DNA from: a virus
Virus record (IMG/VR): IMGVR_UViG_3300037485_001572
Span: 1-27,376 of that record
Length of the DNA stretch: 27,376 nt
Strand: one strand, 5' to 3'
Part shown: positions 5,984-24,481 of the stretch, one piece after another
Numbering within the stretch: position 1 is the stretch's first letter
How the letters are laid out: each line of letters begins with the position of its first letter
Translations under genes and position numbers: made by a program
Notes under the pieces: generated by a model
Told to the model about the DNA's origin: nothing
Databases searched by the model: none
What the model saw: only the letters and a program-made list of their open reading frames with translations

Positions 5984-5991
5984 GAGATACA

Positions 5992-6888
5992 ATGAGTATT
6001 GGAAATAGTAATTATCCTTCACTTGGGACACACACTTCTGATGGTTTTAGATCTGGATCAATATTATCTGGTACTAATGTTATTAGCACATCTTCAATTG
6101 AAGCAAATGGCGTTATAAATACTCCATGCGGCTATGAAATTGGCGGTGCTAATGGCGTCATGAGTACTCCTAGGTATACTTATACTATTAAACCACTACC
6201 TGCATCTTCTAGTGCTTTATTTGCAATTGCAGCTATACCAGCTTCAGGATATCTCAGTTTGGTTGCTAATCTCACTTATGTAACTCCAATAAGAGATGCC
6301 ACTGGAACAACATTGTATAAATTAGATGTGCCAAGAAATATTGCCTTTAATTTCTCAGCTGCGCCAGTAGTTACGATTACAATTTGGGGATATGATTATG
6401 GTGGGTATCCAATTACTGAACAAATTACTACAGGCATTGCAACATCATATTTTACTGTCAATGCTTTCATGTCTGTAAGGGCAATATTCTTCTCAGCTGG
6501 AACTGGTCCAATCACTGTAAGTGTTGGAACGGGTAATGGCTTTGGTTTGCCGTATTACATTTTCGATACAGGATGTGTTGATGCTTATTTTGCTGGAGCA
6601 CAGATTTCCAATGCCGTTCCAAATACTATAATCGTGGGTAATAGCTCTGATTTTCCAGCCTTAATAACGACTACTGATGCTCGTGGATTAATAAATGTAA
6701 CTCCAAATGGATTGCAATTTTTAACGGTCAATATGTTTGTCTTCGGCGCACAATCAAGCGCACAAATAGCCTATCAAGCAAATTATTTCGGTTTGGTTCC
6801 AGTTTCAGGATCACCTTTAACATCAGTTTTTGCAAATCCATTTAGAGCTAGATATGGGATCACACCATATTCAATGCCACTTATATAG
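5992..6888 (+). CDS. Virion protein paralogue B
   Basis: The 298-residue middle member carries LGTHTSDGFRSGS (11-23), CGYEIGGANGVMSTPRYTY (46-64), IWGYDYGGYPITEQI (131-145), LPYYIFDTG (186-194), MFVFGAQ (248-254) and ANPFRARYGITPYSMPLI at the C-terminus. It is longer than paralogue A mainly because of an insertion near residues 24-45 and more loop residues before the C-terminal block. It starts 8 nt after A with AGGAGA. A 22-nt stretch over the MFVFGAQ codons is identical to A (5850-5871 and 6731-6752), which suggests duplication or gene conversion. The role is unknown; probably it builds the same virion layer as A and C. Confidence 0.75.
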   Translation: MSIGNSNYPSLGTHTSDGFRSGSILSGTNVISTSSIEANGVINTPCGYEIGGANGVMSTPRYTYTIKPLPASSSALFAIAAIPASGYLSLVANLTYVTPIRDATGTTLYKLDVPRNIAFNFSAAPVVTITIWGYDYGGYPITEQITTGIATSYFTVNAFMSVRAIFFSAGTGPITVSVGTGNGFGLPYYIFDTGCVDAYFAGAQISNAVPNTIIVGNSSDFPALITTTDARGLINVTPNGLQFLTVNMFVFGAQSSAQIAYQANYFGLVPVSGSPLTSVFANPFRARYGITPYSMPLI

Positions 6889-6900
6889 GTAGGAGATTTT

Positions 6901-7833
6901 ATGACTTTAGGAAATGGCCCAATACTTGGAAATGGAAATTATCCTTCACTTGGTACTCATTCAGCGGATGGATTCAGATCGGGTAATATAGCCACGGAAT
7001 CTCAAATGATGCTAGGTGGGGTAATCACATCAAATGTCGAGCCAAATAGCTACGATCATGGTGCTAATGGCGTTATCAATAGCACTAGATATACATATAT
7101 TATTAGACCGCGTGCTGAAGTATTTAATGTTCTAACTGCTGGAACGCCATCATTGGCATCAGCTGGTTATCTGCCGCTCTCACCAACTGCAGGATATGGT
7201 ACATATGTAACTTTAAATGGTGTTCAGGTCATAAGATTAGATGTACCAAGATGTGTTGTGTTTGCTTTTAGTGCGCCTATACCAGCTCTGGGTGAAATTA
7301 CTATAACTGTTTTTGGTTATGATTATGGAGGGTATCCAATCGTAGAGCAGATCAATGCGATAGTTGGAAGTAATACATTCTCTTCACTGAATGCCTTTGC
7401 TTATATTAGAGCTGCTTATTTCTCAGCTGGCACTGGTGCGTTGACGGTCACCATGGGCGTTAGAAATATATTCGGGATACCATTCTATTTTTATGATGCA
7501 GGTTGTTTAAATGTTTATTATGGAGGGCTACCAGTAACTACTGCTACCAATGCAATGGTACCGGGCAATACAACCTACCCTGCAACTAACTCCACTGGCG
7601 ATGCAAGAGGAACTGTTTATGCAATAGCAAATAACAGTAATTATCTCATGGTCAATATGTTTGTATTCGGTGCTCAGGCAAATGAAGCCATATACAACCA
7701 AGCAAATTCACTTCAATTGGCTCCGATGATTGCTAATCCTATTGTTGGAGGATCACCAGCAACGATATCATTGTTTAGTAATCCATTTACCGCTCGTTAT
7801 GGAATTACGCCATATAGCCAACCATTAATATAG
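6901..7833 (+). CDS. Virion protein paralogue C
   Basis: The third member, 310 residues, has an extra N-terminal GNGPIL segment, then GNYPSLGTHSADGFRSGNI (12-30), GANGVINSTRYTY, VFGYDYGGYPIVEQI (137-151), IPFYFYDAG, GDARGTV, MFVFGAQ and NPFTARYGITPYSQPLI. It is closer to B than to A in the central and terminal blocks. It starts 12 nt after B, preceded by TAGGAGA. All three differ most in the surface-like region after the N-terminal block and before the C-terminal block. Three copies could give different positions in one hetero-oligomer or alternative surface proteins. This is inference; the paralogy is directly visible. Confidence 0.75.
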   Translation: MTLGNGPILGNGNYPSLGTHSADGFRSGNIATESQMMLGGVITSNVEPNSYDHGANGVINSTRYTYIIRPRAEVFNVLTAGTPSLASAGYLPLSPTAGYGTYVTLNGVQVIRLDVPRCVVFAFSAPIPALGEITITVFGYDYGGYPIVEQINAIVGSNTFSSLNAFAYIRAAYFSAGTGALTVTMGVRNIFGIPFYFYDAGCLNVYYGGLPVTTATNAMVPGNTTYPATNSTGDARGTVYAIANNSNYLMVNMFVFGAQANEAIYNQANSLQLAPMIANPIVGGSPATISLFSNPFTARYGITPYSQPLI

Positions 7834-7840
7834 AGGTAAT

Positions 7841-8572
7841 ATGAGTAGACAAGTAGCTATAAAATATCTGGCCTCAACAACAACTTCCATAGGGCCACTA
7901 CAACCATTAATGGAGGGGACTTTCACCAACCTGAATCCACAATATTTATATTTTGTGAATGGCAATAAGACCTTTGAAAATGTCGGTTTAGCACGATTAA
8001 TGACATTAACAAGCGCACAGAATCTAGCTGGTTTATCATTCACCATTACTGGAACTAATGTTATCGGTGAATTAGTCTATGAAACGATTGCTGGTCCTAA
8101 TGCTAATAGTGTCTGGTCGTCAAATCAATATAACACAATTACCTCAATTAGCTGGGTTGGAGTATGTGTTGCAGGAAGTTCTATTAGTATTGGTACTGGT
8201 GATGGTGCTACTGGAGAATCTGCTAACTTCAAAATGCAAATTCTAGACATTAATAGATCACGCTTCCAATTTGCAGCAACTGTCAAATTAGGGGCTGGGG
8301 TTTATAGTTATAGCATGATTGCAACTCTCGATAATCTAGTCGGAGGAACTGCTGGTGCAAATATCTTTGATTTGGTTACTAAGACGCCTGCTCTTACTGC
8401 CTACACCACGTCACAATATTTTGGATTCCCAAGCAGCATGACTGTTGCAGGTCCGCCAATTGTTTCAATAGGCGGAGAAGGAGCCTCTCTGATATCTGCA
8501 TTCTGGTTAACAGCCGCAACTATCCCATCTGGTGGAACAATCAATTTAACTTATGCGCAAGCAGGGGAGTAA
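7841..8572 (+). CDS. Beta-rich virion protein, distant relative of A-C
   Basis: The 243-residue product contains LSFTITGTNVIGELVYETIA followed by YNTITSISWVG and SISIGTGDGATGE (about residues 66-126). This order matches the TIxGxDxxGxPIxExI...FxxVxxxxFSxGTGxxTVxxGTG pattern seen in paralogues A-C, so a common fold is likely although overall identity is low and the conserved ends are missing. GAGG precedes the ATG, 7 nt after paralogue C. It probably belongs to the same head or neck layer. No named family is claimed. Confidence 0.65.
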   Translation: MSRQVAIKYLASTTTSIGPLQPLMEGTFTNLNPQYLYFVNGNKTFENVGLARLMTLTSAQNLAGLSFTITGTNVIGELVYETIAGPNANSVWSSNQYNTITSISWVGVCVAGSSISIGTGDGATGESANFKMQILDINRSRFQFAATVKLGAGVYSYSMIATLDNLVGGTAGANIFDLVTKTPALTAYTTSQYFGFPSSMTVAGPPIVSIGGEGASLISAFWLTAATIPSGGTINLTYAQAGE

Positions 8573-8574
8573 TT

Positions 8575-8931
8575 ATGCGTAGGGAAAGAAGACATGGAGA
8601 GGAAGATTCAAGAATGCTACGCGCCAAAGGTGGTCATGCACATGATAGATACAATGATCATGACGATGAGCGTTTTGATGAAGACGATATTAAAGAGTTA
8701 AAAGAAAAACTCAAACATAAGAAACGCATGCATAACTCTGAAGGTGGAGAAAACTGGATAGCAGGAGCTATTAAACATCCAGGCGCTCTACACGAAGCAT
8801 TGGGTGTGTCAGAGGGTAAGAACATTCCTGCAAAGAAACTTAGCAAAGCTATGCGCAGTGAGGATCCAACTCTTAGAAAGGAAGCAAATTTAGCAAAAAC
8901 ATTGAAGTCTTTCCATCACAGAAGGCCTTAG
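8575..8931 (+). CDS. Small basic phage protein with AIKHPGALHEALG motif
   Basis: In this 118-residue protein the first half is highly charged, with His/Asp/Arg-rich sequence and LRAKGGHAHD, a KGG motif like those in the first gene. The second half (residues 60-118) has NWIAGAIKHPGALHEALGV, GKNIPAKKLSKA and ANLAKTLKSFH. That C-terminal signature is familiar from small or C-terminal regions of uncharacterised phage structural-region proteins. It starts 2 nt after the previous stop, with GGGGAG as ribosome site. The next gene encodes the head-tail adaptor. Its biochemical role is unknown; nucleic-acid contact would fit its charge. Confidence 0.65.
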   Translation: MRRERRHGEEDSRMLRAKGGHAHDRYNDHDDERFDEDDIKELKEKLKHKKRMHNSEGGENWIAGAIKHPGALHEALGVSEGKNIPAKKLSKAMRSEDPTLRKEANLAKTLKSFHHRRP

Positions 8932-8949
8932 ATTTTTGGAGTAATATAG

Positions 8950-10056
8950 GTGGCAACTACAACTTACAATTTCAGTAATATGCCTGTTGCCGACATGGTC
9001 ATAGATGCCTATGAACGGTGTGGGATAGCTGGGTCTTTGTTAACTGGACAACATATTCAATCTGCCAGACGCTCTATAAATCTTATGTTCTCAGAATGGG
9101 CTAATAAAGGTCTGAATCTTTGGACTGTTACGCAAAATATGTTCACTATTATTCCTGGTCAGGCCAATTATCCATTGCCATTCAATCTTGTGGATATAGT
9201 GGATAATGAGATTAAGGTAGCTAATACTATTAGGCAGTTAGGTGGAACGGCTTTTGCTTATGCGGGAAGTCCTCCAGTTGCTAATGGTAATGCAACTAAT
9301 GCATTTGATGGCAATCCAACAACGGCTTGCATTCAAACTCTTCCTAATGGAAATATTGGATATGATTACGGTGCTCTCGCCTCTTATCCTATTAAATATG
9401 TTGGAATTCAATCCAACATTACGACCACCTATACCTTGGTATTTGAGTATTCTTTTGATAATTCTACTTGGTATAGTCCTTATAATAGTCAATTACAACC
9501 TAGTCTTAATATAATAAACCCTGTAACACAGAGTTTTACAGCAGGACAGATCAATTGGTATGTTATGCCAGATGCTGTAACTGCTCGTTATTGGAGGATT
9601 AGGGAAACAGGAGGTTCTACTTTAAATGTACAAGAAATTTACTTTGATTTGCCTACTAATAACTCTCATATTATCATGCGATTGTCACGTGAGGAATACA
9701 TCTCAACACCTAACTTACAAATCCAATCAAGCGTTTCAAGCTTCCAAGTAAACAGAACTTTACCACCGACCGTTTCGCTATATCCAACACCAGATGCGAG
9801 TTTTCAATATGTCATCTATAACGCGATTCAGTACATAAAAGATGTTAGTGCGTTACAAGACAATTACTTTGTTCCTCAGAGATTCTTAGAGGCCACTATT
9901 GCTGGTCTTGCTTACAAGATTTCAGTCAAATTTGCAGCTGACAAAGCAGAGTTCCTTAAAGCAGCTTCCGATGAATCATTTGCATTCGCTGCTGCTGAAG
10001 ATGTGGAAAGAGTGCCGCTTAGATTCATCCCTGATTATTTTGGTGGAGGCAACTAA
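8950..10056 (+). CDS. P22 gp4-like head-tail adaptor with inserted discoidin-like domain
   Basis: The 368-residue protein has a split gp4-like (tail accessory factor) body. Residues 10-90 (ADMVIDAYERCGIAGSLLTG, then NLMFSEWANKGLNLWTV, FTIIPGQANYPLP, LVDIVDNEI) and residues 238-368 (MRLSREEYIST, VSLYPTPDASFQYVIYNAI, FLEATIAGLAYKISVKF) match the family that docks on the portal ring. Between them, at about 95-234, lies a segment resembling F5/8 type C (discoidin) domains: NAFDGNPTTACI (117-128), IGYDYGA, FEYSFDNSTWY, ARYWRIRE (212-219) and LNVQEIYFD. Such domains often bind carbohydrate. The start is GTG at 8950, set by GGAG at 8938-8941. The stop overlaps the next ATG (TAATG). The adaptor call is firm; the inserted domain is recognised by pattern only. 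Confidence 0.82.
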   Translation: MATTTYNFSNMPVADMVIDAYERCGIAGSLLTGQHIQSARRSINLMFSEWANKGLNLWTVTQNMFTIIPGQANYPLPFNLVDIVDNEIKVANTIRQLGGTAFAYAGSPPVANGNATNAFDGNPTTACIQTLPNGNIGYDYGALASYPIKYVGIQSNITTTYTLVFEYSFDNSTWYSPYNSQLQPSLNIINPVTQSFTAGQINWYVMPDAVTARYWRIRETGGSTLNVQEIYFDLPTNNSHIIMRLSREEYISTPNLQIQSSVSSFQVNRTLPPTVSLYPTPDASFQYVIYNAIQYIKDVSALQDNYFVPQRFLEATIAGLAYKISVKFAADKAEFLKAASDESFAFAAAEDVERVPLRFIPDYFGGGN

Positions 10057-10328: not shown

Positions 10329-11417
10329 ATGGGAAATGCATCAGATACATCAGAATATGTATTAGTAAATAATGACGCGACTCTACCTAATAGTAGAAAA
10401 CTTACTACTGCACCAGGATTACAACTAAATGATACAGGCGCTGGTGGTGAATTAGAAATTGGATTGAATTCCAATTTAGGAGCTTTGCAATCATTACCGT
10501 TCAACGGGATTGTCGTTAAGACGGCAGACGGTGCACTGGCAACAAGAACGTTATTAACTGCGGTTGGTCTTGAGATAGTCAACCCATCTGGTGTTGGTGG
10601 GGATCCAGTATTAAACGTTCTGCCAGATACAAACTTACAAAGAGTAAACGTTCTTAATTCTGGAGTCTCACAAGCTACCAGAGCCTATCTGAATTTCATT
10701 CCAGGTGCTGGAATGGGCATTACCATTGCTGATAATGGACCAGCCAATAGAATAGACCTGACATTTACATCAGAAGTTGGTGCAGATGATATGGCAACTT
10801 ATCTATTACAAATTCCTAATGCTGGCCTTCCGAATGCGCAAGCTATGAGCACCTTGGCAACGGGAATTGTCAAGAATACTACAATTACTGGTGTGCAATC
10901 AATTGCTATAGCTGATGTTGATTATCAATCTGCTAATCAAAATCTAATAGATATATCAGCAGTTAATCCAGCAGCTGATGGACAATTATTTGTAACTGAC
11001 GGGGGGGGAGTAGTTTCATTGCCAGTCGGAGCTAATGGAACTTATTTATCGGTGTTAGCAGGTCATCCGGCATGGCAACCTATTCCAGGCGCTACAGATT
11101 ATGTAGCCCAAGGTGTAGATGTAACAGCAACACCAGATGTGTCGTATCTAACCACAGGAGTGGGAGTTGTAACCATCACTCTTCCTGCTGTTATGGCACA
11201 GGGAAAAATAATTAAAATAGCGGGATTTGGAGCTGGAGGTTGGGTACTTGCTCAACAAATTGGGCAACAGATCTTCTTCGGAGATCAACAGACGGCGGTC
11301 GGAGTGGGAGGTAGCTTAGCATCTACGAACCAGTTTGATTGTGTTGATGTGGTATGCGGGACTAATAACCTCGAATTCACTGTCGTCAATTCACAAGGAA
11401 ATTTAACAATCGTCTAA
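10329..11417 (+). CDS. Tail fibre protein 1
   Basis: The 362-residue protein has modular fibre sequence: ALQSLPFNGIVVKTADGALA and LEIVNPSGVGGDPVL (about 50-97), then YLLQIPNAGLPNAQAMSTLA with GIVKNTTITGVQSIA (158-194), both common shaft or connector motifs of trimeric fibres. The C-terminal domain (257-362), with TITLPAVMAQG, GAGGWVLAQQ, GVGGSLAST and SQGNLTIV, is homologous to that of the next gene and is probably the receptor-binding or trimerising head. Strong AAGGAG lies 7 nt before the ATG. A run of eight G at 11001-11008 encodes Gly225-227; slippage there would truncate the head domain. No intramolecular chaperone or enzyme motif is seen. Confidence 0.75.
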   Translation: MGNASDTSEYVLVNNDATLPNSRKLTTAPGLQLNDTGAGGELEIGLNSNLGALQSLPFNGIVVKTADGALATRTLLTAVGLEIVNPSGVGGDPVLNVLPDTNLQRVNVLNSGVSQATRAYLNFIPGAGMGITIADNGPANRIDLTFTSEVGADDMATYLLQIPNAGLPNAQAMSTLATGIVKNTTITGVQSIAIADVDYQSANQNLIDISAVNPAADGQLFVTDGGGVVSLPVGANGTYLSVLAGHPAWQPIPGATDYVAQGVDVTATPDVSYLTTGVGVVTITLPAVMAQGKIIKIAGFGAGGWVLAQQIGQQIFFGDQQTAVGVGGSLASTNQFDCVDVVCGTNNLEFTVVNSQGNLTIV

Positions 11418-11438: not shown

Positions 11439-12131
11439 ATGGCAACTAATAATAGTATTAATACCCCTCTCATAATTCCTGTAACCCGTGGTGGTTCTGG
11501 GGTTGCAGCAATTACAGCAAATAGCTTTATCTATGGTGCTGGGACTGCTGCAGTTGTTGAACTTGCTGCTGGTGCTGGTGATCTAGTTATCGGTACCGCT
11601 GGTGCGCCAACAGTAGTAAATCTTGCTGATAATGAAGTAGTAATTGGTGGCGGTACTTCTGCTCCAACATCTATTGCTCTTACCGATGGTCAACTCGTAA
11701 TGGGTGCTACAGGCGCTGCTCCCGCTGCTGGTAACATCGTAGGTGGTGTCGGTATTACAGTAACTAATGGCGTAAATAGCATCTCTATTTCTGCTGATGC
11801 TTCTGAAAACTGGACTGATGTAACAGGCACATCACAAGCTATGGCTGTGAACAGTAGCTATACAGCAAATAATGCTTCTCTAGTAACACTGACACTGCCT
11901 GCAGTAGCTGCTTATGGTGTTCTTTTTGAAGTTGCATACAAAGGTGCTGGTGGTTGGTTAATTGCTCAGAATGCTAGTCAAAGCATCCGCTTTGGTAGTT
12001 CTGTGACAACATCTGGTGTTGGTGGAAGCTTAGCGTCTTCTGCTGCTGGTGATGTAGTGAGAATTCTTTGCACAACTGCAAACACTGGTTTCGAAGTACT
12101 AAGCGCTCAAGGTAACTTGACCGTAGTTTAA
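11439..12131 (+). CDS. Tail fibre protein 2
   Basis: The 230-residue protein opens with MATNNSINTPLIIPVTRGGS and then three shaft repeats of about 19 residues: GDLVIGTAGAPTVV (47-60), NEVVIGGGTSAPTSI (65-79) and GQLVMGATGAAPAAG (84-98). Residues 124-230 form a C-terminal domain homologous to that of the preceding fibre (LTLPAVAAYG, GAGGWLIAQNASQSI, GVGGSLASS, AQGNLTVV). Codons are biased to GCT/GGT and the ribosome site (AAAGGAGATAAAC) is the strongest here, so high expression is likely. The gene is followed by a perfect palindrome and a terminator-like hairpin. Its N-terminal peptide is shared with the next two genes and may be the virion anchor. Confidence 0.78.
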   Translation: MATNNSINTPLIIPVTRGGSGVAAITANSFIYGAGTAAVVELAAGAGDLVIGTAGAPTVVNLADNEVVIGGGTSAPTSIALTDGQLVMGATGAAPAAGNIVGGVGITVTNGVNSISISADASENWTDVTGTSQAMAVNSSYTANNASLVTLTLPAVAAYGVLFEVAYKGAGGWLIAQNASQSIRFGSSVTTSGVGGSLASSAAGDVVRILCTTANTGFEVLSAQGNLTVV

Positions 12132-12140
12132 TCTATCTCG

Positions 12141-12168
12141 ACCATATTGTTGATATCAACAATATGGT
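12141..12168. other. Perfect 28-bp palindrome after fibre 2
   Basis: Bases 12141-12168 equal their own reverse complement (centre TTGATATCAA, outer arms ACCATATTG / CAATATGGT). In RNA, one G-U and one C-G pair extend it by two base pairs. There is no T-run directly after it, so it is not a standard terminator. It may protect the 3' end of the fibre mRNA, serve RNase III, or bind a dimeric protein. Confidence 0.8.
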
Positions 12169-12173
12169 TGAAA

Positions 12174-12204
12174 AGGGGGAGCGTAGTTCGTTTCCCCCTA
12201 TTTT
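12174..12204 (+). terminator. Terminator-like hairpin upstream of the gene at 12224
   Basis: AGGGGGA (12174-12180) pairs with TCCCCCT (12193-12199) around a 12-nt loop and is followed by ATTTT. The T-run is short, so partial termination is most likely, lowering expression of genes after the fibres. Confidence 0.5.
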
Positions 12205-12223
12205 AAAAATGAATGAGGGTAAA

Positions 12224-12736
12224 ATGTCTACAAATAATGCAATAAACAGTTCAGTATCTGGTAGTGGTCTGCCCGCATTCACATACTGTACAATACCAAC
12301 TAATACACCAGCTCTTCTAATTCTAACAACGGCTTCCGGTTATATTGAGTCTGATGTGTTGGGAGCATATCTAACCAGTCTTATTGATCTTTCTCAGACT
12401 CTAGATGCTAATGCTACATTGGTGTTTTCTCTAAAAATTATATTTGATCTAGCAGCAATTCCTGCAGTAAATGAAACTGTTTCAGTCTCTATTGGAACCG
12501 ATCAAATAGGAGCTGCCGCGTTTGCTCCAACTCCTGAGTTAATCTCTGTGCCTCTTGCAATGGTTACACCATCGGTGACTAGTGTTGACATACCAGTACT
12601 AATTTCTGATATCGCAGATGCGGCTAATACAAAGATCAGATTCACTTTCTTAAATAATGCTACTTCTTCGTTAGCACTGCTGTCAGTAACAAGTTTTGTA
12701 AGTGTTATGTACCTACCTACAGGATATAGCGTATAG
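12224..12736 (+). CDS. Small virion-like protein, paralogue 1 of 2
   Basis: A longer in-frame ATG exists at 12164, but it lies inside the palindrome. GAGGGT at 12215-12220 and homology of the N-terminus (MSTNNAINSSV) to the neighbouring genes support ATG 12224, giving 170 residues. The protein is hydrophobic-beta in composition with VSVSIGTDQIG, a later DAANTKIRFTFLNNATS, and VMYLPTGYSV at the end. These blocks align with IRIGTDYV, KANTKFSIKITNNTT and TSYLPNGF in the next gene. It is probably a fibre-associated or receptor-related part; no family is recognised. Confidence 0.68.
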   Translation: MSTNNAINSSVSGSGLPAFTYCTIPTNTPALLILTTASGYIESDVLGAYLTSLIDLSQTLDANATLVFSLKIIFDLAAIPAVNETVSVSIGTDQIGAAAFAPTPELISVPLAMVTPSVTSVDIPVLISDIADAANTKIRFTFLNNATSSLALLSVTSFVSVMYLPTGYSV

Positions 12737-12741
12737 GTATC

Positions 12742-13257
12742 ATGACCACACATAACGCAATAAATAGCTGTCTGCCGATGTCGATTGGAAGTTATTTTAC
12801 CTTTCCAGCAACAACTCTGGCTGAAATTACTATAGCGAAGGGAGAAAATTATACATTCTTATCCGATGAAGTTAATAGTTGGCTAATGAATGTTTTACGT
12901 GGCACTGATAAACATACTCCATACAATAGTGATACATTATTGCTTATGTCATTTAATCTTTATTTCGATACCAATACTCCATCTAAGATAGAGCAGTTAG
13001 TTAATATTCGGATTGGTACTGACTATGTAACGCCGATTGACTCGAATCCATCTACGAATATTTCATTTATAGATAGCGTGAAGACATGTGCTATTCAGGT
13101 GAATGTGCCTGTTTCCGTTCAGAGCATTATAAATAAAGCAAATACCAAATTTTCCATAAAGATAACCAATAATACGACTGCCAATGTTGGGATAGCTATT
13201 GTAAATCAAGTTGCATTTACCAGCTACCTACCTAATGGCTTCTGTTTACAGGAGTAA
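12742..13257 (+). CDS. Small virion-like protein, paralogue 2 of 2
   Basis: The 171-residue product begins MTTHNAINSCLPMSIG and shares with the preceding protein the N-terminal peptide, LLMSFNLYFDTNTPSK versus LVFSLKIIFDLAAIPA, the IGTD block, ANTKF and the YLPNGF end. The two are therefore diverged tandem duplicates. The ribosome site is weak (ATAGGT). The gene starts 5 nt after its paralogue and ends 3 nt before the second adaptor gene. It could be a component that sits on the tail via its N-terminal peptide. No catalytic motif is visible. Confidence 0.68.
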   Translation: MTTHNAINSCLPMSIGSYFTFPATTLAEITIAKGENYTFLSDEVNSWLMNVLRGTDKHTPYNSDTLLLMSFNLYFDTNTPSKIEQLVNIRIGTDYVTPIDSNPSTNISFIDSVKTCAIQVNVPVSVQSIINKANTKFSIKITNNTTANVGIAIVNQVAFTSYLPNGFCLQE

Positions 13258-15743: not shown

Positions 15744-17294
15744 ATGGTCGATCATTACAACCTCAAATTAGATATACCAGCAGGAATCCAGCGTGATGGT
15801 ACGCAGTTTGATTCAGAATATTGCGTGGATGGAGATTGGGTGAGATGGTATCGTAATCGTCCTAAAAAGATGGGTGGTTATAAATATATTCTAAGCCTTG
15901 GCAACATTGTAACTAATATGTATGTTGTCCCGCTGCAAAATCAGGTGGCAGTATATATGGGAACATTCAATAATCTCTATGTACAAAATGTCAGTCTAGA
16001 TGGGTTAACTGTCAGCGCATTAAAGAATATCACGCCATCTTTATTTGTTGGCAATGTTAACAATAACTGGACATTTGATACGCTTTCCGCACAAATCAAG
16101 AATTCTGCAGGAATTCTTGTTACTTCAACATTTCTGATAGCACATGTAGCACAGAATTATAATGATCTGACTAATAATTATGATGGTCCGGTTTATTATT
16201 ATGATATCAATACTACCATTGCATCGCCAGTAGTAGCCCAAGTATTGCCAGGAGCAGGAAATTGGTCTGGTGGTATAGTGGCTGTTCCTCCTTATTTATT
16301 TGCGTTTGGGGATTTTGGTCAAATAGCCTGGTCTAAAGTATTTGATGGCACAGCATGGTCCACTGCGCAGATTGCTGGGAACAAAATGCTATGTGCTAAA
16401 CGTGTGAGGGGTGGGGGGGCTCCAGCTGCTCTATTCTGGTCAGTTACATCGCTTGTACAAGCTACCTTTTCTGGAGGTGCTGGCAGTCCAGATGCATTTT
16501 CATTCGATACAAAACATGATGATATTTCGATTCTATCAAAAGACTCAGTCATTGAATATAATGGTATCTATTACTGGCCAGGAACTAATCAGTTCTTCAT
16601 GTATAATGGTGTGGTTAATACTATGCCAAATGTCACTAATGCTAATTGGTTTTATGATAATCTAAATATCAGTGCCAGAACTAAATTATTTGGCATTAGT
16701 AATGGTCGTTATAAAGAATTATGGTGGCATGCACCTATGTTCGGATCAACTATAAATAATCACGCTATTATATTTAATACAGACGAAGCAACTGCCTGGT
16801 ATGATGCAGCCATTAGTCGTTCTTGTGGATTCAAAGCACAGATATTTCCTAAACCAATGCTGTTTGATTATGAACAAAATGTCGTGCCAGGAAGTTATGC
16901 CTTATGGCAACATGAATATGGTTATGATCGTGACTTTAACGGCGTCTTATCTGCTATACCGTCCTTTTATGAGACTAAGATTTATATGTTAGCTAGTATG
17001 GGGGGGCCTGATGATAGACAACTGCGAATTAGAAGAATGGAACCTGATTTTACTCAAGTTGGACCTATAGAATTCGTAATAAAATATAGGGCCTTTCCAG
17101 ATTCACTTCCAGCATATTCTGATACTTATGTTTTTACAGATTCAACCAAAAAAGTAGATACTTTCGTTCAAGGTAGACAGGTTAGCTTTGTTTTTGGAGT
17201 TGTTGCGCTAGGAGCATATTATGAACAGGGAGATATCAATATAAATTATGTTATTGGCGATGCAACACCTCAATCGGGGGAATTAGATGTCTAA
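15744..17294 (+). CDS. P22 gp10-like tail hub / packaged DNA stabilisation protein
   Basis: The 516-residue protein has the family signature at its N-terminus: IPAGIQRDGTQFDS (11-24), DGDWVRWYRNRPKKMGGY (29-46). Repeated blades of W, Y and G-rich beta strands follow, including VVPLQNQVAVYMG, NGIYYWPGTNQFFMYNG and RYKELWWHAPMFG, as expected for the propeller-like hub that plugs the adaptor ring and retains DNA. P22 gp10 is about 472 residues, so this is slightly longer. GAGGTGA precedes the ATG. The next gene overlaps by 8 nt. Two runs of seven G (16413-16419 and 17000-17006) occur in an AT-rich gene but the frame stays intact. Confidence 0.82.
   Translation: MVDHYNLKLDIPAGIQRDGTQFDSEYCVDGDWVRWYRNRPKKMGGYKYILSLGNIVTNMYVVPLQNQVAVYMGTFNNLYVQNVSLDGLTVSALKNITPSLFVGNVNNNWTFDTLSAQIKNSAGILVTSTFLIAHVAQNYNDLTNNYDGPVYYYDINTTIASPVVAQVLPGAGNWSGGIVAVPPYLFAFGDFGQIAWSKVFDGTAWSTAQIAGNKMLCAKRVRGGGAPAALFWSVTSLVQATFSGGAGSPDAFSFDTKHDDISILSKDSVIEYNGIYYWPGTNQFFMYNGVVNTMPNVTNANWFYDNLNISARTKLFGISNGRYKELWWHAPMFGSTINNHAIIFNTDEATAWYDAAISRSCGFKAQIFPKPMLFDYEQNVVPGSYALWQHEYGYDRDFNGVLSAIPSFYETKIYMLASMGGPDDRQLRIRRMEPDFTQVGPIEFVIKYRAFPDSLPAYSDTYVFTDSTKKVDTFVQGRQVSFVFGVVALGAYYEQGDININYVIGDATPQSGELDV
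16097..16119. repeat. Inverted repeat inside the tail-hub gene
   Basis: CAAGAATTC (16097-16105) and GAATTCTTG (16111-16119) form a perfect 9-bp stem with a 5-nt loop, TGCAG, within coding sequence. No T-run follows it. Confidence 0.6.
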
Positions 17295-17538
17295 TGCACC
17301 TTTATTGCCCTCACATAATATGACATTTACCCAGTGGTGGAGTCAGTTAAATAGCGACTTAATTGGAAAAGCAATCACAAGCGTTGTTATCGATGAATCC
17401 AAATGGATGGATCTAGTTAATCAACTTACTCAAAATAATCAATTAGGTGTTATTCCTAATGCTAGTGAGGAATTTTATCCAGGTCCAGATGGATGGAGAA
17501 AATGGGCGATGGTTTTTATATCAAATTTACCATCGTAG
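17287..17538 (+). CDS. Small protein overlapping the tail hub gene
   Basis: The 83-residue protein contains FTQWWSQLNSDLIGKAI, SKWMDLVNQLTQNNQ and EEFYPGPDGWRKWAMVFIS. The layout of two amphipathic helices and a tryptophan-rich C-terminus resembles short unnamed proteins found near gp10-like genes. Its start lies 8 nt inside the hub gene, after CGGGGGA, so translation is coupled. In P22 the tail needle gene gp26 follows gp10, but this protein is far too short and lacks the long coiled coil, so I do not call it a needle. Confidence 0.62.
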   Translation: MSNAPLLPSHNMTFTQWWSQLNSDLIGKAITSVVIDESKWMDLVNQLTQNNQLGVIPNASEEFYPGPDGWRKWAMVFISNLPS

Positions 17539-17602: not shown

Positions 17603-18772
17603 ATGTTTCAATTAGACATTTTACAGCATCAAACAAAGAAAGCCTCAGGCAAGCCTCGTAAGCGCAGTATGGTTTTAGCTCATTTTAGCCCTAAAGAGCT
17701 CGAAGATATGGATCATGTTCAAGGGGGAGTAGTCAAAGATGAACATGGTATAAAACAATATAAGAATCTTTGGGATCATCTTCTACATCATCCAGTTATT
17801 CAAGAGAATTTTAAAGCACATGCCAGAGAAACTAAAGCATCTGGCGGGTCGGCTGATATTATGCAGAGACTTAGACGTCATGGTAGACATGGTGATAGCG
17901 AAATAGCCTCTATACCATCTGCAATGGCTGATATGTTAGATTCCGTATATGGCAAAAGTCGCAACCCACAAGATGGTAAACATGAATATTTTAGTGCATC
18001 AAGTATTGGTGATTTCTTAAAAGGTGCCATAGCAAATGTTCCTTTTGAGGGGATGAAAGATTTTGGTAAACACGCAGCAAAAACAGGATCAAAAGCCTTT
18101 AATTATATGATGAGACCAGGAGCTATTAGAGTTGATCCTGGAGTTCCTGCTGCTCCTGCTGCTCCTGCTGCTCCACTTGGTATGTTGGCTCAGATGGGTA
18201 GAGCAGCTGGTTCCAGTACGGGAAAGGCTTTAGGTAGTTTAATTGGAGGAGGTTTGCTTACTTATGGAGGAGGCAAATTAGGCCAACATATTGGTAATAA
18301 ATATGGTGGAAAATATGGAGATATTGGGGGTGCTCTAGGAGCTGCTGCTGGTATGGGAGCTGGGGCTTGGGCAGGTAAAGAATTAGGTGCAAAAGTTGGT
18401 GGTCATTATGGGTCAAAGATAGGTGGGAATGTTGGGGAGCGTATGGGTAGTATGGCTGGTGCTGCACCGGCCGCTGTTGGTAGGGCTGCAAGAGCTGGCG
18501 CTCAAGCCGTATCCAATCTTCCAGGGCATGTAGCTGAATCAGCTTCTACTGCATATAGAGGACTTCCAGAACCAGTGCGCAATATTGCTGGTGGAATAGC
18601 AGCAGAAGTACCCCGTATGGGATCAGCTGCACTTGATGTGCTGAATGCGCCAGCGAATGCTTTTGCCGCCTTACATGGCCCAGCATTATCGCAAGATGAA
18701 TATACATACCGTATGTTCCCACAACTTAGACCACAACCACAAAGACATCCGATAATCGATGATGTTGAATAA
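17603..18772 (+). CDS. Putative ejection protein 1 (tandem family of three)
   Basis: The 389-residue protein has two related N-terminal motifs: LAHFSPKELEDMDHVQGG with GIKQYKNLW (25-57), and GDSEIASIPSAMADML with NPQDGKHEYF (97-130). Both follow a scheme of helix, (G)G, acidic turn, G..(E/Q)(Y/F). A Pro-Ala linker and a Gly/Ala-rich stretch (195-290) with GxxxG spacing such as GGGKLGQHIGNKYGG and GGHYGSKIGGNVGE follow, as in membrane-inserting proteins. Position right after the tail hub suggests an internal virion protein ejected with DNA, comparable in role to P22 gp7/gp20/gp16. GAAGGTGG precedes the start. Homology to the next two genes is visible; the ejection role is inferred. Confidence 0.7.
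   Translation: MFQLDILQHQTKKASGKPRKRSMVLAHFSPKELEDMDHVQGGVVKDEHGIKQYKNLWDHLLHHPVIQENFKAHARETKASGGSADIMQRLRRHGRHGDSEIASIPSAMADMLDSVYGKSRNPQDGKHEYFSASSIGDFLKGAIANVPFEGMKDFGKHAAKTGSKAFNYMMRPGAIRVDPGVPAAPAAPAAPLGMLAQMGRAAGSSTGKALGSLIGGGLLTYGGGKLGQHIGNKYGGKYGDIGGALGAAAGMGAGAWAGKELGAKVGGHYGSKIGGNVGERMGSMAGAAPAAVGRAARAGAQAVSNLPGHVAESASTAYRGLPEPVRNIAGGIAAEVPRMGSAALDVLNAPANAFAALHGPALSQDEYTYRMFPQLRPQPQRHPIIDDVE
18146..18172 (+). repeat. Three 9-nt tandem repeats (CCTGCTGCT)
   Basis: Three perfect copies encode a PAAPAAPAA linker between the N-terminal domain and the Gly/Ala-rich region of ejection protein 1. Copy number could vary by slippage without changing the frame. Confidence 0.85.
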
Positions 18773-18787
18773 TTAAGGAGAACTCGC

Positions 18788-19828
18788 ATGCTAAATTTAG
18801 AACATTTAAACCGTAGACAACTTCACAGCCATGGAGGCGGCGTACATCATAAGGAACGTCATGATGGTAATTCTTATGTTCCAGTACATATGAGCCATGA
18901 AGAGGTGCAAGCTTTAGAAGATATTGATGGTGGACCAAGACATGATAAAGCTGGTATTCGAGAATTCAAATTAGATGTTCTCAAGAATCCTCATATACAG
19001 GAAAAGTTCTTACATCATCATCATATGCATGTAGCGATGGGTGGACATGTTGGTGTGCCTCATCATGTTCAAGCAAATAGAATGAATGGACGCTTTGGTG
19101 ACACTGAAATGGTCAAAATACCTAAACATGTAGCGCATTTATTTGATCGAGCTATTGGCGGTCCATGTAGAAACCCTATAGATGGTAAACATGAGTATTT
19201 TTTAGGTGCTTTAGCTGGTTTAGCTGGTAATTTATTTAGAGCAGCAGCGCCTGCAATTGGAGGAGCCTTACGAGGTGCAGCTAGTACTGCAGCACGCGTT
19301 CTCCCATCTATGGCAAGAACCGCGGGAAGTGCGCTTGCATCAGGAGCTAGAACAGCCGGTAGCGCACTTGCTCGTGGAGCAGGATCAGCAGCAAGTGGTT
19401 TAGCTGGAGCTGGAAGAGCAGCAGCTAGTGGACTTGGTAGAGCAGCATCAGCCGCAGCACCGTATGCACGTCAAGCAGCTGGTGCCGTTGGAAGCGGACT
19501 TAAAGCGGTTGCTAAGCCTGTGATAGAAACTGCTGCATCTGTTGGATTGCCGCTTTATATGCATAAAAAACAAATGGATTCCCAAGAAGCTATGCAACGT
19601 GAGCAGATGCAACAACAGCAAGCTGTCCAAGGACTAGACACTATGCATGATTTTGGCGGCCAACGTGGAGAATATTCATCTGCTGAAGATATTCCTGTTG
19701 CACCCGGGTATCAAGGCGCACAACCACCGAGAGCTCCACAAATGACTGGTCTTACAGGTATGGGTAAGCGTGTTGTTCCCTATCAAGAAGAGCAATTCTA
19801 TGATGCAAGACCATATGAGGGGCAATAA
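18788..19828 (+). CDS. Putative ejection protein 2
   Basis: The 346-residue paralogue has a His-rich start, VHMSHEEVQALEDIDGG with GIREFKLDVLKNPHIQEKF (33-74), HHHHMH (76-81), then GDTEMVKIPKHVAHLFD and NPIDGKHEYF (104-138). The last block is almost identical to ejection protein 1 (N.P.DGKHEYF). Residues 139-250 are Ala/Gly-rich with repeats such as RTAGSALASGA and RTAGSALARGAGSA, likely amphipathic or membrane-active helices. A Gln/Met-rich segment (258-283) and a Pro-rich tail complete it. AAGGAGA precedes the start 15 nt after the previous stop. The histidine cluster might bind metal, but could also reflect composition alone. Confidence 0.7.
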   Translation: MLNLEHLNRRQLHSHGGGVHHKERHDGNSYVPVHMSHEEVQALEDIDGGPRHDKAGIREFKLDVLKNPHIQEKFLHHHHMHVAMGGHVGVPHHVQANRMNGRFGDTEMVKIPKHVAHLFDRAIGGPCRNPIDGKHEYFLGALAGLAGNLFRAAAPAIGGALRGAASTAARVLPSMARTAGSALASGARTAGSALARGAGSAASGLAGAGRAAASGLGRAASAAAPYARQAAGAVGSGLKAVAKPVIETAASVGLPLYMHKKQMDSQEAMQREQMQQQQAVQGLDTMHDFGGQRGEYSSAEDIPVAPGYQGAQPPRAPQMTGLTGMGKRVVPYQEEQFYDARPYEGQ

Positions 19829-19830
19829 TC

Positions 19831-21540
19831 ATGGCTATGGACTTATCAGTTTTAGAAGACGTTCCTGAAGATGTGGAAAAACATATTCCAATGATGGTTG
19901 CTCATTTTAGTCATGATGAGTTAAATGATCTAGACAAGATGCAAGGTGGCGTTTCTATTGATGAGGCTACTGGGCTTAGAGAATATAGCAAATTATGGGA
20001 CATAGTAAAACAGCCAAAGATGAAATCTATGTTTAAGAAGATAGCTCATGTTGAAAAAACACAAAAAGAACCTGAAAAATCTGCATTTAAAGGCTTAGAG
20101 AAGATATATCCCTCCTCGAAACAAGAGTTCCAACCAAATCCAGCTGATGATATTCCAGAAGTAGCAGCGGTAGAGGCAGCTGGAACGGAGGGTGATGATG
20201 AATTGGCTTTGATGCCTGTGCCATTCTTAGATTTCCTTGATTCACTTAGAGGAAAACCAGCCACAAATAGAACAACTGGCTTGCCTCAATATGGATTCTT
20301 CAAGAGTTTATTTAGAGTTGGTGCCAGTATTGTTGGTGCAATGTTTGGCGGCCCAGTTGGAGGTGCTATTGCAGGCGGATTGTCTCATAAGGTAACTGGC
20401 GGCAAATTCGGCAGAGGTGCCCTTCTTGGTGGAATTGGCGGGCCTATGGCTCTTTATGGTGCTGGTCAGCTTGGTGGTATGTTTCCGAGTCTTGCAGGTA
20501 CAGTTGGTTCAGGAGCTAGTAGTTTATTTGGTCCAACAATTGGAGGGCATATAGGAAATATATTTAATCCAGTGGGAGGTGGTGTTTCTGGAATGCTTGG
20601 AGGTATGCTTGGAGGTGGCGCAGGTACTGTGGGACCACAAGCTGCTGTAGGTGCTTCACAGATTGCATCAGCAGCGGCTCCCGCGGCGGCAGGTGCCGCT
20701 TCAGCTACTGCAGCACCATCGTTTTTCTCAAAATTAATGGAACCTGGCAATTTATTGCCATTAGCTACTATAGGTGGATTGATGTACAAGGGCGAGAAGA
20801 AAGCCCAGCAAGATATGGGTGATGCAATTCGCAGACATCAAGAGGCTAATGCTGCATTACAAACAGGAAGTGGCATGAATATGAAATTGGGCAATGTTAA
20901 GTCGTTTCCAACTATTTATAATCCTGATTTTAGAACTGCTAAAGAAAAACGTGGGCCGATGGGTAGTATCGAACATGAGTATTTTAAACCTCCGCCAGCC
21001 GATTATTATATGCAATATGCCAAGGGTGGTAAGGCCTCTGTGCCATCTGATCGTGGATTGGCCAAAATGAAAGAGTTGCCGGCTAATGATCACTCTCATG
21101 CGATAGAGGGTCCTGGACGTGGCCAGGAAGACCGAATACCGTTCCAACTTAAAGATGGAGATTATATTATTGATGCATCTAGTGTTGCTGATCTTGGGGA
21201 CGGTTCTTCAAAGGCCGGATATGACACTATTAATGAAATGGTACATAAGCTTAAATCTAAATTTAGAGAGCCTAAAGTATCATATTCAAGAGGTGGAAAA
21301 ATACAGGATTTAAGTAAAAGTAAGAATATTCCAGCTGCTCTATCTGATGGTGAGTACAAAATAGATCGTAAGATCGTAACAATAATAGGTAATGGCTCTA
21401 ATGATATTGGGGCAGATATTTTAGATGCTGCTCGTAAAAACCTACGTGCGCATAAAAACAGTAATGGAAATGGATTACCACCAAAAGCTAAGCATATATT
21501 TGAGTATTTTCCGAAACAATTTAAGTTAAAAGTAGGTTGA
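19831..21540 (+). CDS. Putative ejection protein 3 with duplicated SDGEY-type domain
   Basis: The 569-residue paralogue repeats the layout: VAHFSHDELNDLDKMQGG with TGLREYSKLW (23-56), then GDDELALMPVPFLDFLDSL and NRTTGLPQYGFF (121-157), and a glycine-rich hydrophobic region (158-270) suited to membrane insertion. Unlike its relatives it has a C-terminal extension with two copies of a domain common in phage structural proteins: GPGRGQEDRIPFQLKDGDYI (427-446) with DLGDGSSKAG, and NIPAALSDGEYKID (499-512) with GNGSNDIGADILDAARKNLR. KGG motifs (YAKGGKA, YSRGGKI) precede each copy. GAGGGG lies upstream of the start. The second motif copy (TGLPQY) most resembles marine-phage virion proteins with a GGxGTxNPxTGLxEF pattern. 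Confidence 0.72.
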   Translation: MAMDLSVLEDVPEDVEKHIPMMVAHFSHDELNDLDKMQGGVSIDEATGLREYSKLWDIVKQPKMKSMFKKIAHVEKTQKEPEKSAFKGLEKIYPSSKQEFQPNPADDIPEVAAVEAAGTEGDDELALMPVPFLDFLDSLRGKPATNRTTGLPQYGFFKSLFRVGASIVGAMFGGPVGGAIAGGLSHKVTGGKFGRGALLGGIGGPMALYGAGQLGGMFPSLAGTVGSGASSLFGPTIGGHIGNIFNPVGGGVSGMLGGMLGGGAGTVGPQAAVGASQIASAAAPAAAGAASATAAPSFFSKLMEPGNLLPLATIGGLMYKGEKKAQQDMGDAIRRHQEANAALQTGSGMNMKLGNVKSFPTIYNPDFRTAKEKRGPMGSIEHEYFKPPPADYYMQYAKGGKASVPSDRGLAKMKELPANDHSHAIEGPGRGQEDRIPFQLKDGDYIIDASSVADLGDGSSKAGYDTINEMVHKLKSKFREPKVSYSRGGKIQDLSKSKNIPAALSDGEYKIDRKIVTIIGNGSNDIGADILDAARKNLRAHKNSNGNGLPPKAKHIFEYFPKQFKLKVG

Positions 21541-21541
21541 T

Positions 21542-24481
21542 ATGGCTACATTAAGTGCACTAGAGAAAGAGCTTAAGGCGCGTGAGAAGAGGTTAGCTGA
21601 TATTGAACGAAAAATTGAGAGGGCAATAGCTCGTGCTGCTCAGGACATCACGACTGACAATGACAGAAATAATTTTTACGAAGATCCTTTGAAGTGGTTT
21701 AATAGTGCTCTAACCGATTCCAATGCCAACAAAAAAAATTGGCCATCTGTCTTAGCGTATGGAAGAATACTTAAGGAGCGAGAGGCACTCTTACAGGGTA
21801 CTAAAGATGAAAAAAACCCTTTCGCTGCGTTATCTATTGAGAATCTCGAGAAGCAAGCTGAATTAGATCAAGCGCAACGAGAAGCGCGAACTTCTGCGAC
21901 CGATCTTAGGTTGCAGGAAGCAGCTGCCAGATTAGATCAGCGTATTGCCGAGATGGAAAGAATGCGTCAGGATAAGGCAGCTCCACAAACAGGTGCTGGG
22001 GCTCCCCAGTCAGCTCAGCAGCCTCCAGAAGGTGCAGCGCAGCCCCAAGAAGAGATACCGAGACCTCAACCAAAAATAGGTCAACAAGCTGCGTTTAAGA
22101 AGGGTGATCATGTTTATTTAAGCAATGGCAAGGCAATCCCTGCTGACTATGATTCACTGATGCAAGCTTATGATCAGGGCGAGAATATTCCCTATGGCAT
22201 TCTCGAAGAAGCTGCTTATGAAAAGCAGGATCAGGAATCCGATATTGCTAATTTTCAAAGAGAAGCCGCAGCTTTTGCAAGAAAACAAGAAGAAGGCACT
22301 AAAGGAGCTCGTCTCGAATCATATAATAAACTAGACCAAGCTGGCAAAGATGAATTTGCAGCTAGTGAGGCTGCTCGTAAGAATCCTAAATTTGCTACAT
22401 TGCCACCAGATGCCCAAGCAAGAGAAGTTCTAAGGGAAAAATCTAATCTTCAAAACGAAGACCTAGAGGCTAAAAATGCTGCCCTACACCAAACATCTGC
22501 GGAGACACAGGCTAAAGAAACTACACGTGTTGAAGATGCGCTGAGAAAAGCCTCTTCACAAACAGGAACTGACTCAACATTCACTCAAACTCCCTTATGG
22601 TACGGTGGGCCTGAAGGTGTTTTGATGGATGTTATACGTAAAGGAAAGGCTTTATCTGAGAAGCCATATGAGGCGTTCAAGGGTCAAAGAACAGCTGAGC
22701 TTACACCATTACAAGAAATAGCTGCAAAAGAAGCCTATAATATAGCTGGTAATCCCGATCTTAAGGGGTTATTTGCATCTGCATCTGAAAATCTCAAAGG
22801 GGCAACGGAAACTAAATTACCAGAAGTAGTATCTGGATATGCGAATCCTTATAAAGCAGAGGTTATGGATGCTTTGCAACGTCGTATGACCGAGCATTAC
22901 AAAAAAGATATATTACCTGGGATTGAAGCTGGGTACATTCAGAGAGGAGCTTGGGATAGCTCTGGTAGGGCTGATGCTGTTAAAAGAGCAACAGAAGAGC
23001 ATATGCGTGGAGTAACCGAGGCTCTATCAGAAGTTGGACATAGAGGGTATGAATCATCAATGCAACATGCTGCTCAGGATCTACAACGTCAGTTGACTGG
23101 TGCTGCTGAGCTACAGAATCTTAAAGGCACTGAGGCTAAAAATCGCATGGAGAATGTTGCGCTACTTGACACAATTGGTGCGCGTAAACGGGCAATTGAT
23201 CAAGAAAAGAAAAATGCTGAATATGCTGATTATATTACTCAAAAAGAACATCCCTACAAACAGGCTTCGAAATATTCTGAGATTATCAGAGGATTACAGC
23301 CAAATACTGCTGTTTATCAAAATACTTTGCAGCAACCCGGTCCTAATTTATACCAGCAGGGTGCTGGAGCGGTTCTCTCGGGGTGGGGTCTGATGAATCA
23401 GATGCCTAAAGCTGCTGGTGGAAGGGTGAAATTAGCTGATGGTGGGATGGCGGGAATGCTTCCTGAGGAACAAGATTATCAGAACAGACTTGCTATGGCA
23501 GCCAATCAGTTAGACAAAGGCTCTCCTCATCCATTTTGGAATGCTATTACTAATATGGGATCTGCTATGACCCAGAGTAAGAATCCTAGGCCACTCGGTG
23601 CATTATTTGAATCGACACCTGCAGCTGTAACTGGATTTAAAGAGGCACAAGCCCAAGATGAAGCAAGACGTGACCAAGCGCTTAATTTAAGAAAATTGAT
23701 TGCAGAATCAAGAAGAGTGCAGGAGGATAGGGTTTACAAACGCAAGCTTGAGCGTGAGGAAATGGATTGGAAAAAGTTTAGAGCCAGAACAGATGCGTCT
23801 AAAGGTGCATCTTCTTATCTAACTCCTGGAGAGCGATCTGCCAATATCAAAATATTAAAAGAAGTCTCTAATCAAAGAGTGGCTGCTCGATCTCTTGATA
23901 ATCTATACAAGCAACTTGATGAGAGTTTTGATAAATTTGATAATAAATATGGCAAAAGCACATGGAAAAAACCTGGAGATATTGCATCAAAAATAGCTAG
24001 GAAATTTGGGGCAGAGAATGTCATATATGGAAAGGCTTTGGCTGAATCAGATAGAATAAAAGCTCTAAAATCTGAAATATTAAAAGCTGAGTTAGCTAAA
24101 CTTCCTGCATCAGCTGCTGGTGATGTGCATATGCAACAAAGAATTCTCGAAGGCATTCCTGATATTACTCTTAATCCAGAAGCTAGAAAGGAAATGATTC
24201 TAGGCAAAAGATCAGAGAATAAATTGATTGAGTTAAGATCATCCTTTCTAAATACGTGGTCTAAACTTAACGGAAGAGATCTAGCGCAGGCAGAAGAGGC
24301 GTTTGACCAATTCAGGGGCACTATTCATCCTGACGATAACAAGTCTGATATTGAGAGAGAAATGCATAGATTTATCTCTGATGTCAGTGGCAATAGTGTA
24401 TCGAACCAGGAATATATGGACCTGCCAGAGTATAATTCTTTAAGTGAAATACCGGATGAACTATTAGATCAAGTGGGATAG
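21542..24481 (+). CDS. Large putative internal virion protein
   Basis: This is the longest gene, 979 residues. It starts with a coiled coil (2-35), a Gln/Ala/Pro-rich linker (about 145-180) and a helical region. At about 340-500 it shows a pattern recurring in phage structural proteins: ELTPLQEIAAKEAYNIAG, VSGYANPYKAEVMDALQRR and GYIQRGAWDSSGRADAVKRA, followed by a long helical stretch. GGRVKLADGGMAGM at about 625-640 is a KGG-type junction. The C-terminal third is charged and helical (EDRVYKRKLEREEMDWKKF) and ends MDLPEYNSLSEIPDELLDQ. The start, one base after the previous stop, has only a weak AGG, so coupling is likely. Its size and place resemble the large ejection proteins of podoviruses. 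No lytic transglycosylase motif is seen. Confidence 0.68.
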   Translation: MATLSALEKELKAREKRLADIERKIERAIARAAQDITTDNDRNNFYEDPLKWFNSALTDSNANKKNWPSVLAYGRILKEREALLQGTKDEKNPFAALSIENLEKQAELDQAQREARTSATDLRLQEAAARLDQRIAEMERMRQDKAAPQTGAGAPQSAQQPPEGAAQPQEEIPRPQPKIGQQAAFKKGDHVYLSNGKAIPADYDSLMQAYDQGENIPYGILEEAAYEKQDQESDIANFQREAAAFARKQEEGTKGARLESYNKLDQAGKDEFAASEAARKNPKFATLPPDAQAREVLREKSNLQNEDLEAKNAALHQTSAETQAKETTRVEDALRKASSQTGTDSTFTQTPLWYGGPEGVLMDVIRKGKALSEKPYEAFKGQRTAELTPLQEIAAKEAYNIAGNPDLKGLFASASENLKGATETKLPEVVSGYANPYKAEVMDALQRRMTEHYKKDILPGIEAGYIQRGAWDSSGRADAVKRATEEHMRGVTEALSEVGHRGYESSMQHAAQDLQRQLTGAAELQNLKGTEAKNRMENVALLDTIGARKRAIDQEKKNAEYADYITQKEHPYKQASKYSEIIRGLQPNTAVYQNTLQQPGPNLYQQGAGAVLSGWGLMNQMPKAAGGRVKLADGGMAGMLPEEQDYQNRLAMAANQLDKGSPHPFWNAITNMGSAMTQSKNPRPLGALFESTPAAVTGFKEAQAQDEARRDQALNLRKLIAESRRVQEDRVYKRKLEREEMDWKKFRARTDASKGASSYLTPGERSANIKILKEVSNQRVAARSLDNLYKQLDESFDKFDNKYGKSTWKKPGDIASKIARKFGAENVIYGKALAESDRIKALKSEILKAELAKLPASAAGDVHMQQRILEGIPDITLNPEARKEMILGKRSENKLIELRSSFLNTWSKLNGRDLAQAEEAFDQFRGTIHPDDNKSDIEREMHRFISDVSGNSVSNQEYMDLPEYNSLSEIPDELLDQVG

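Follow-up and report, generated by a model that had tools for sequence, protein, structure and literature searches.

A duplicated N-terminal domain in three tandem paralogues of a putative phage ejection module

Three adjacent genes of an uncultured phage, probably a short-tailed one, here called A, B and C, encode paralogous proteins which each carry two copies of one motif in the N-terminal region. The motif defines a small domain, for which the name LAH/TGLPE domain is coined here. We read A-C as proteins of the ejection module in a short-tailed phage, with an N-terminal domain that has been duplicated and would act as an anchor, and with genes that have themselves been duplicated in tandem; we give this reading a probability of about 55%. 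The window, that is, the whole stretch of DNA analysed, is 27,376 bases long. It is an IMG/VR virus record and a fragment.

Genes A, B and C

The three genes and their repeated elements are:

17603..18772, + strand: ORF A, 389 aa, two motif copies and a glycine-zipper-like (GxxxG) tail
17666..17761, + strand: A motif copy 1, aa 22-53, SMVLAHFSPKELEDMDHVQGGVVKDEHGIKQY
17879..17992, + strand: A motif copy 2, aa 93-130, HGRHGDSEIASIPSAMADMLDSVYGKSRNPQDGKHEYF
18788..19828, + strand: ORF B, 346 aa, two motif copies and an Ala/Gly/Arg-rich tail
18872..18967, + strand: B motif copy 1, aa 29-60, SYVPVHMSHEEVQALEDIDGGPRHDKAGIREF
19085..19201, + strand: B motif copy 2, aa 100-138, NGRFGDTEMVKIPKHVAHLFDRAIGGPCRNPIDGKHEYF
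19831..21540, + strand: ORF C, 569 aa, two motif copies, a Gly-rich part with one hydrophobic segment, and two DGE copies
19888..19986, + strand: C motif copy 1, aa 20-52, PMMVAHFSHDELNDLDKMQGGVSIDEATGLREY
20188..20298, + strand: C motif copy 2, aa 120-156, EGDDELALMPVPFLDFLDSLRGKPATNRTTGLPQYGF
21109..21231, + strand: C DGE domain copy 1, IPFQLKDGDYIID...LGDGSSKAG (DGE HMM E 2.7e-15)
21316..21423, + strand: C DGE domain copy 2, IPAALSDGEYKID...IGNGSNDIG (DGE HMM E 7.6e-13)

An earlier note on this DNA described three tandem ORFs with two motif copies each. The coordinates agree with that description, the copies match by profile, and BLAST finds the ORFs to be paralogous (A-B E 2.8e-16, A-C E 6.5e-12, B-C E 3.7e-4). 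A ribosome-binding-like sequence precedes each gene. The note gave the distance between copies as 70-95 residues, which is right for A and B (71 in both) and too short for C (100).

Glycine and alanine make up 24-30% of the whole protein across A, B and C. The tails were held to be Gly/Ala-rich and membrane-like; the richness is found in all three, the membrane-like character only in C, which alone has a hydrophobic segment (aa 163-181, Kyte-Doolittle 1.51). The maximum 19-residue Kyte-Doolittle mean is 1.03 in A and 1.28 in B, and neither has such a segment. Likewise, of the proposed "different channel-forming parts", the parts are indeed different, but channel formation is a weak proposal for A and B. 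GxxxG occurs 20 times in A versus 10 in shuffles, a significant excess which is not found in B. Against the glycine-zipper family PF13488, A scores 11 bits, below the cut-off of 25, and there is no match to PF13488 or PF05433 above the curated cut-off.

Homology of the two copies

Copy 1 and copy 2 are homologous. A significant profile match between first and second copies had been set beforehand as the test, and it is found: profiles of 15 sequences align with each other in hhalign at 95.2% (E 2.6e-8, score 37.6). The shuffle maximum is 15.3 (0/200 reach 37.6), and blocks of unrelated profiles reach at most 11.9. With six sequences per copy, taken from the window and its relative L006 (contig 3300020045_008173), the direct comparison gives 57.8%; against the canonical phage motif, copy 1 gives 95.8% and copy 2 gives 98.0%. 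None of 300 column shuffles of these profiles reaches any of the three scores. Both copies belong to the family by profile, with hhalign values against the canonical motif of 97.6% (copy 1) and 98.5% (copy 2). Single-sequence HMM matches of the window copies to the canonical motif are weak (4-9 bits). C by itself links its own two copies (hhalign 74%).

Within A alone and within B alone there is no direct similarity between the copies (hhalign 0.2-0.3%), which speaks for chance and shared composition as the only source of the likeness; set against the match obtained with 15 relatives, its controls and the agreement of each copy with the canonical motif, that explanation is scarcely credible and, at the level of sequence, is refuted.

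Distribution of the LAH/TGLPE domain

The canonical, single-copy form of the motif is GRxGDTxLAHITPxEAxLLKxxGGSGTINPxTGLPEF. It was located by pattern in viral contigs. At least 120 phage contigs from metagenomes have it, but only 4 of the 50,697 phage records do: those of Venkman, DSL-LC04 and two Manatee Spring phages. Among 84,980 bacterial and archaeal genomes it occurs in three contigs, all metagenome-assembled; the domain is thus uncommon in those genomes, whether in prophages or as a cellular feature. A scan of bacterial genomes with ORF A gave no match. In Pfam, PHROGs and NCBIfam no model was seen to cover the motif; a few single members gave weak matches there, reported without the stretch concerned.

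The motif is nearly invariant across its 36 residues, some of which are fixed by the collecting pattern itself. When 16 diverse members are compared, nearly all invariant columns lie inside the motif. Canonical relatives have one copy per gene, and two are found only in L130, a long ORF.

The two-copy form is found in fewer relatives by single sequences than by profile. Single-protein searches with A and C among viral contigs found no relative, and profiles of two sequences each, for A and for B, match only L006, as does the pattern NPxDGKHEYF. When the six N-terminal regions were combined in one profile, seven further two-copy contigs came to light among viral contigs. L006 has the same gene order as the window, and its gp10-like protein is 79% identical to that of the window; the identities are 61% for A, 75% for B and 58% for C. 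Between the window and L006, dN/dS is 0.23 for A and 0.16 for B, values of purifying selection obtained with synonymous changes near saturation (saturated in C).

Gene setting

The main ORFs of the window all lie on the + strand. The recognisable genes are mostly structural; tail-fibre-like genes are also recognised, and a holin-like gene and an endolysin come last. Neither a portal nor a terminase gene is in view within this fragment. The genes that locate A-C are:

4208-5119: major head protein (phrog_371)
15744..17294, + strand: P22 gp10-like head-tail stabilization protein, the anchor of the module (phrog_3287, E 1.2e-27)
17287..17538, + strand: 83-aa ORF, placed by its position between the gp10-like gene and A
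21542..24481, + strand: ORF D, 979 aa, middle part related to phrog_4287 (HMM E 1.6e-10 over aa 400-617; hhalign 94.7%)

The gene order is gp10-like, 83-aa ORF, A, B, C, D. The gp10-like protein aligns with annotated "stabilization" proteins from other phages. In the slot of the 83-aa ORF, ORFs of similar size occur in GB2A (78 aa) and L009 (92 aa), the likeness being one of position and size. C ends at 21540 and D starts 2 nt later, at 21542. D has no direct PHROG match, and ORF E shows no tie to the DNA-transfer protein of relatives.

The same arrangement recurs in relatives. Among the matches listed, the motif gene lies 0-1.9 kb downstream of a gp10-like gene, on the same strand, at 74 of the 76 loci that have one, and of 52 separate phrog_4287-like genes, 50 start between -7 and +11 nt from the point where the motif gene ends; both counts take in near-identical contigs. 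Thirty motif proteins have at least 1 kb of sequence downstream yet no ejection-like gene. In two phages, Venkman (gp46) and L098, the motif is fused to an ejection-protein-like part. In Venkman gp46 the match to phrog_4287, "DNA ejection protein", covers aa 78-318, directly after the motif (E 6.4e-11).

A-C occupy the slot between the gp10-like and ejection-like genes that marks this family, and form a cluster after a gp10-type tail gene as in phages of the P22/T7 type. That A-C belong to an ejection module, as the earlier note had proposed, is supported by the order of the genes, by the fusions and by the ejection family next to them. A, B and C show no similarity to named ejection-protein families in PHROGs, Pfam or NCBIfam, where only D is related (phrog_4287).

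Other features of the window may be recorded here. A GroES co-chaperonin match (phrog_3188, E 6.9e-11) lies shortly before the capsid genes, at 1274-1702. The genes at 5141-5983, 5992-6888 and 6901-7833 are paralogues in tandem; their products, each about 280-310 aa long and sharing 38-46% identity, are probably virion surface or decoration proteins. This trio (5141-7833) is a second tandem gene triplication within the same structural region as A-C. There are further adjacent paralogous pairs at 10329-11417 and 11439-12131 (phmmer E 4e-22) and at 12164-12736 and 12742-13257 (E 4e-14). Tandem duplication of structural genes is thus a habit of this genome.

Architecture and history of the family

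C has the standard order of the family: motif, Gly-rich part and C-terminal DGE domain. The DGE consensus is IPAxLSDGEYVIDAxxVxxLGxGSxxxGAxxL, and the domain is often duplicated. It is present in C, in L004, L005, L009, L014 and L024, and in about half of the canonical proteins, some of the others being cut by contig ends. Homology of the LAH motif to the DGE domain was considered and rejected (hhalign 0.15%).

Tandem pairs of an A-like and a C-like gene recur in L140, L142, L145 and L143. In L139 and L141 an A-like gene is followed by an 803-aa protein which joins B-like and C-like parts. The C-like part always comes last in these tandems and carries the DGE repeats. In L144 a 333-aa protein (7962-8963), encoded before a C-like gene, has a lone copy 1 joined to a C-terminal part that is unrelated and has no PHROG match, which again points to a modular domain. 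The claim that a common module is fused to different C-terminal parts therefore stands: the partners include the Gly-rich and DGE parts, the phrog_4287 part of Venkman gp46, short Tyr/Gln-rich parts which follow the motif in some proteins, and the L144 part. In a tree of the domains, those of C type group together (support 94/98), and the same tree gives no settled order for the A and B types.

Predicted structure

AlphaFold2 modelling of the N-terminal region of A, from six sequences, is of moderate confidence only (pLDDT 63, pTM 0.57). Each copy in A is predicted to form a strand, a helix and a short hairpin. In the secondary-structure string, strands 23-28 and 100-105 are the only ones long enough to pair together. 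Since strands of six residues can by their length pair only with each other, the prediction suggests that the two copies in A form one compact two-fold unit, a reading taken from the secondary-structure string rather than from coordinates.

Among solved folds in the PDB there is nothing convincing for this region (best Z 2.8), and a PDB sequence search likewise found nothing convincing. In a viral structure library, the N-terminal 165 residues of A match A0A6J5PWS9 (E 9.6e-6, probability 1.00) and A0A6J7XDS3 (E 0.012, probability 0.90). Both are uncharacterised proteins of uncultured Caudovirales which are alike in structure to this region.

Two observations concern a longer relative, L024:1922-3772:-. 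Residues 9-107 are predicted to form the helical domain that precedes the motif in long members (pLDDT about 90), for which there is no good structural match. The Gly-rich residues 213-310 give models like Tim22 and Tim23 (Z 7.6 and 7.2, next best 4.1). This likeness is set aside, as the stretch is of low confidence and the scores are below the reliable level of the tool; it may be glycine-zipper convergence only.

Proposed role and alternatives

A-C would be internal virion proteins, and the phage a short-tailed one whose tail is P22 gp10-like. In each protein, the N-terminal 120-160 residues would be an internal duplication of a domain that is single in many environmental phages. The domain is nearly unchanged while its C-terminal partners vary, which is best explained if it anchors the protein to a common partner; the docking role suggested in the earlier note would agree with this. 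That partner could be the portal, the core or a sister ejection protein; the variable Gly/Ala-rich tail would act after release, toward the host envelope. C would be the standard member, and A and B would have arisen by tandem gene duplication, keeping the anchor and gaining other tails. A-C are thus probably present in the virion, and would be anchored there and ejected.

A tentative extension, to which we give limited credence, makes the LAH/TGLPE domain an address tag, general and uncleaved, for proteins inside the virion in a large group of short-tailed phages of which hardly any are cultured. The single form would pair between molecules and the duplicate within one chain, and pairing within the chain would let several different ejection proteins occupy equivalent anchor sites in each particle.

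The homologues in GB2A and DSL-LC04 are annotated as "tape measure", and the DGE part matches PHROGs named "tail length tape measure". A-C could on these grounds be tape-measure-like proteins of a long-tailed phage, with the domain docking to the tail hub. This is unlikely. A P22 gp10-like gene lies upstream, no other long-tail gene is recognised within the window, and a single length ruler would not be expected to take the form of three short, Gly-rich paralogues. Matches to tape-measure profiles do not extend over most of any of the proteins; they are confined to the DGE stretch of C and the low-complexity tails of A and B, at E 1e-5 or weaker. Electron micrographs of Venkman show a short tail, with the reservation by the authors that tails may have been lost (PMC8163748); a short tail is also given in PMC10580990.

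In P22, gp26 follows gp10. As A-C likewise come after a gp10-like gene, they might fill the slot of the gp26 tail needle or plug, or be other external tail parts which are not ejected. We regard this as quite unlikely: no coiled-coil-like architecture is evident, the family is predicted to consist of Gly-rich helices and disordered stretches, and the motif is fused to an ejection family in two phages.

The earlier note also allowed that the motif is recognised by a protease. The copies would then mark sites at which a head-maturation protease frees mature ejection proteins. The conserved motif end, G-L-P-E-F/Y, is in keeping with this: proteases of the T4 type cleave after (I/L)-X-E, and P22 gp7 loses part of its N-terminal end. 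However, proteases of the S78, S49 and ClpP types were found in none of 20 related records with positive controls (18 of these records have the motif or its two-copy form, many are fragments, and the window genome is incomplete); in the S77 search the control was silent. In two of the six window copies (A copy 1 and C copy 2), Gln stands in place of the Glu that precedes the final aromatic residue. The missing proteases and this replacement make a cleavage signal less likely. Among the matches listed, the motif is internal, at least 150 aa from the N terminus, in 59 of 126 proteins. Conservation spans all 36 residues rather than the end alone, and a folded unit is predicted. A protease site is therefore very doubtful, and the reading of A-C as anchored ejection-module proteins is preferred.

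Relation to known systems

The closest relatives in kind are Venkman gp46, the "tail tape measure protein" of DSL-LC04 and the proteins of at least 120 IMG/VR contigs, which have the same motif, slot and Gly-rich plus DGE architecture as C. The window differs from these in that each of its three tandem genes has two copies, which have diverged. Short-tailed phages are known to have ejection modules whose proteins are mosaic, and P22/T7-type ejection genes have an operon-like tandem order (PMC8954989), as A-C do. The proteins gp7, gp20 and gp16 of P22 and gp14, gp15 and gp16 of T7 are likewise a Gly/Ala-rich cluster after a tail gene (gp10). A, B and C have no detectable sequence similarity to them. 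The phrog_4287 "DNA ejection protein" adjoins the motif gene downstream or is fused to it; D is related to it, and A, B and C are not members.

The capsid-targeting sequence of T4, about 10 residues long and cleaved by gp21, embodies the same idea, a shared short N-terminal element which places different proteins inside the head. The LAH/TGLPE domain differs in having 36 residues, in being folded by prediction and often internal, and in the lack of an S78, S49 or ClpP protease in the 20 records.

In the literature searched, "GLPEF" never occurs together with phage, and no paper on the motif was found. No description of the shared domain, of its environmental spread or of its duplication in tandem paralogues turned up there either. 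A small domain is thus defined which recurs in the ejection modules of environmental phages and which is almost absent from phage records and was seen in none of three family libraries. Gene order and natural fusions give it a testable role. Should it prove to anchor proteins in the virion, the recruitment of unrelated ejection proteins would be explained, and many genes now called "hypothetical" or mislabelled "tape measure" could be better annotated. It could then also be used for placing cargo proteins in phage particles.
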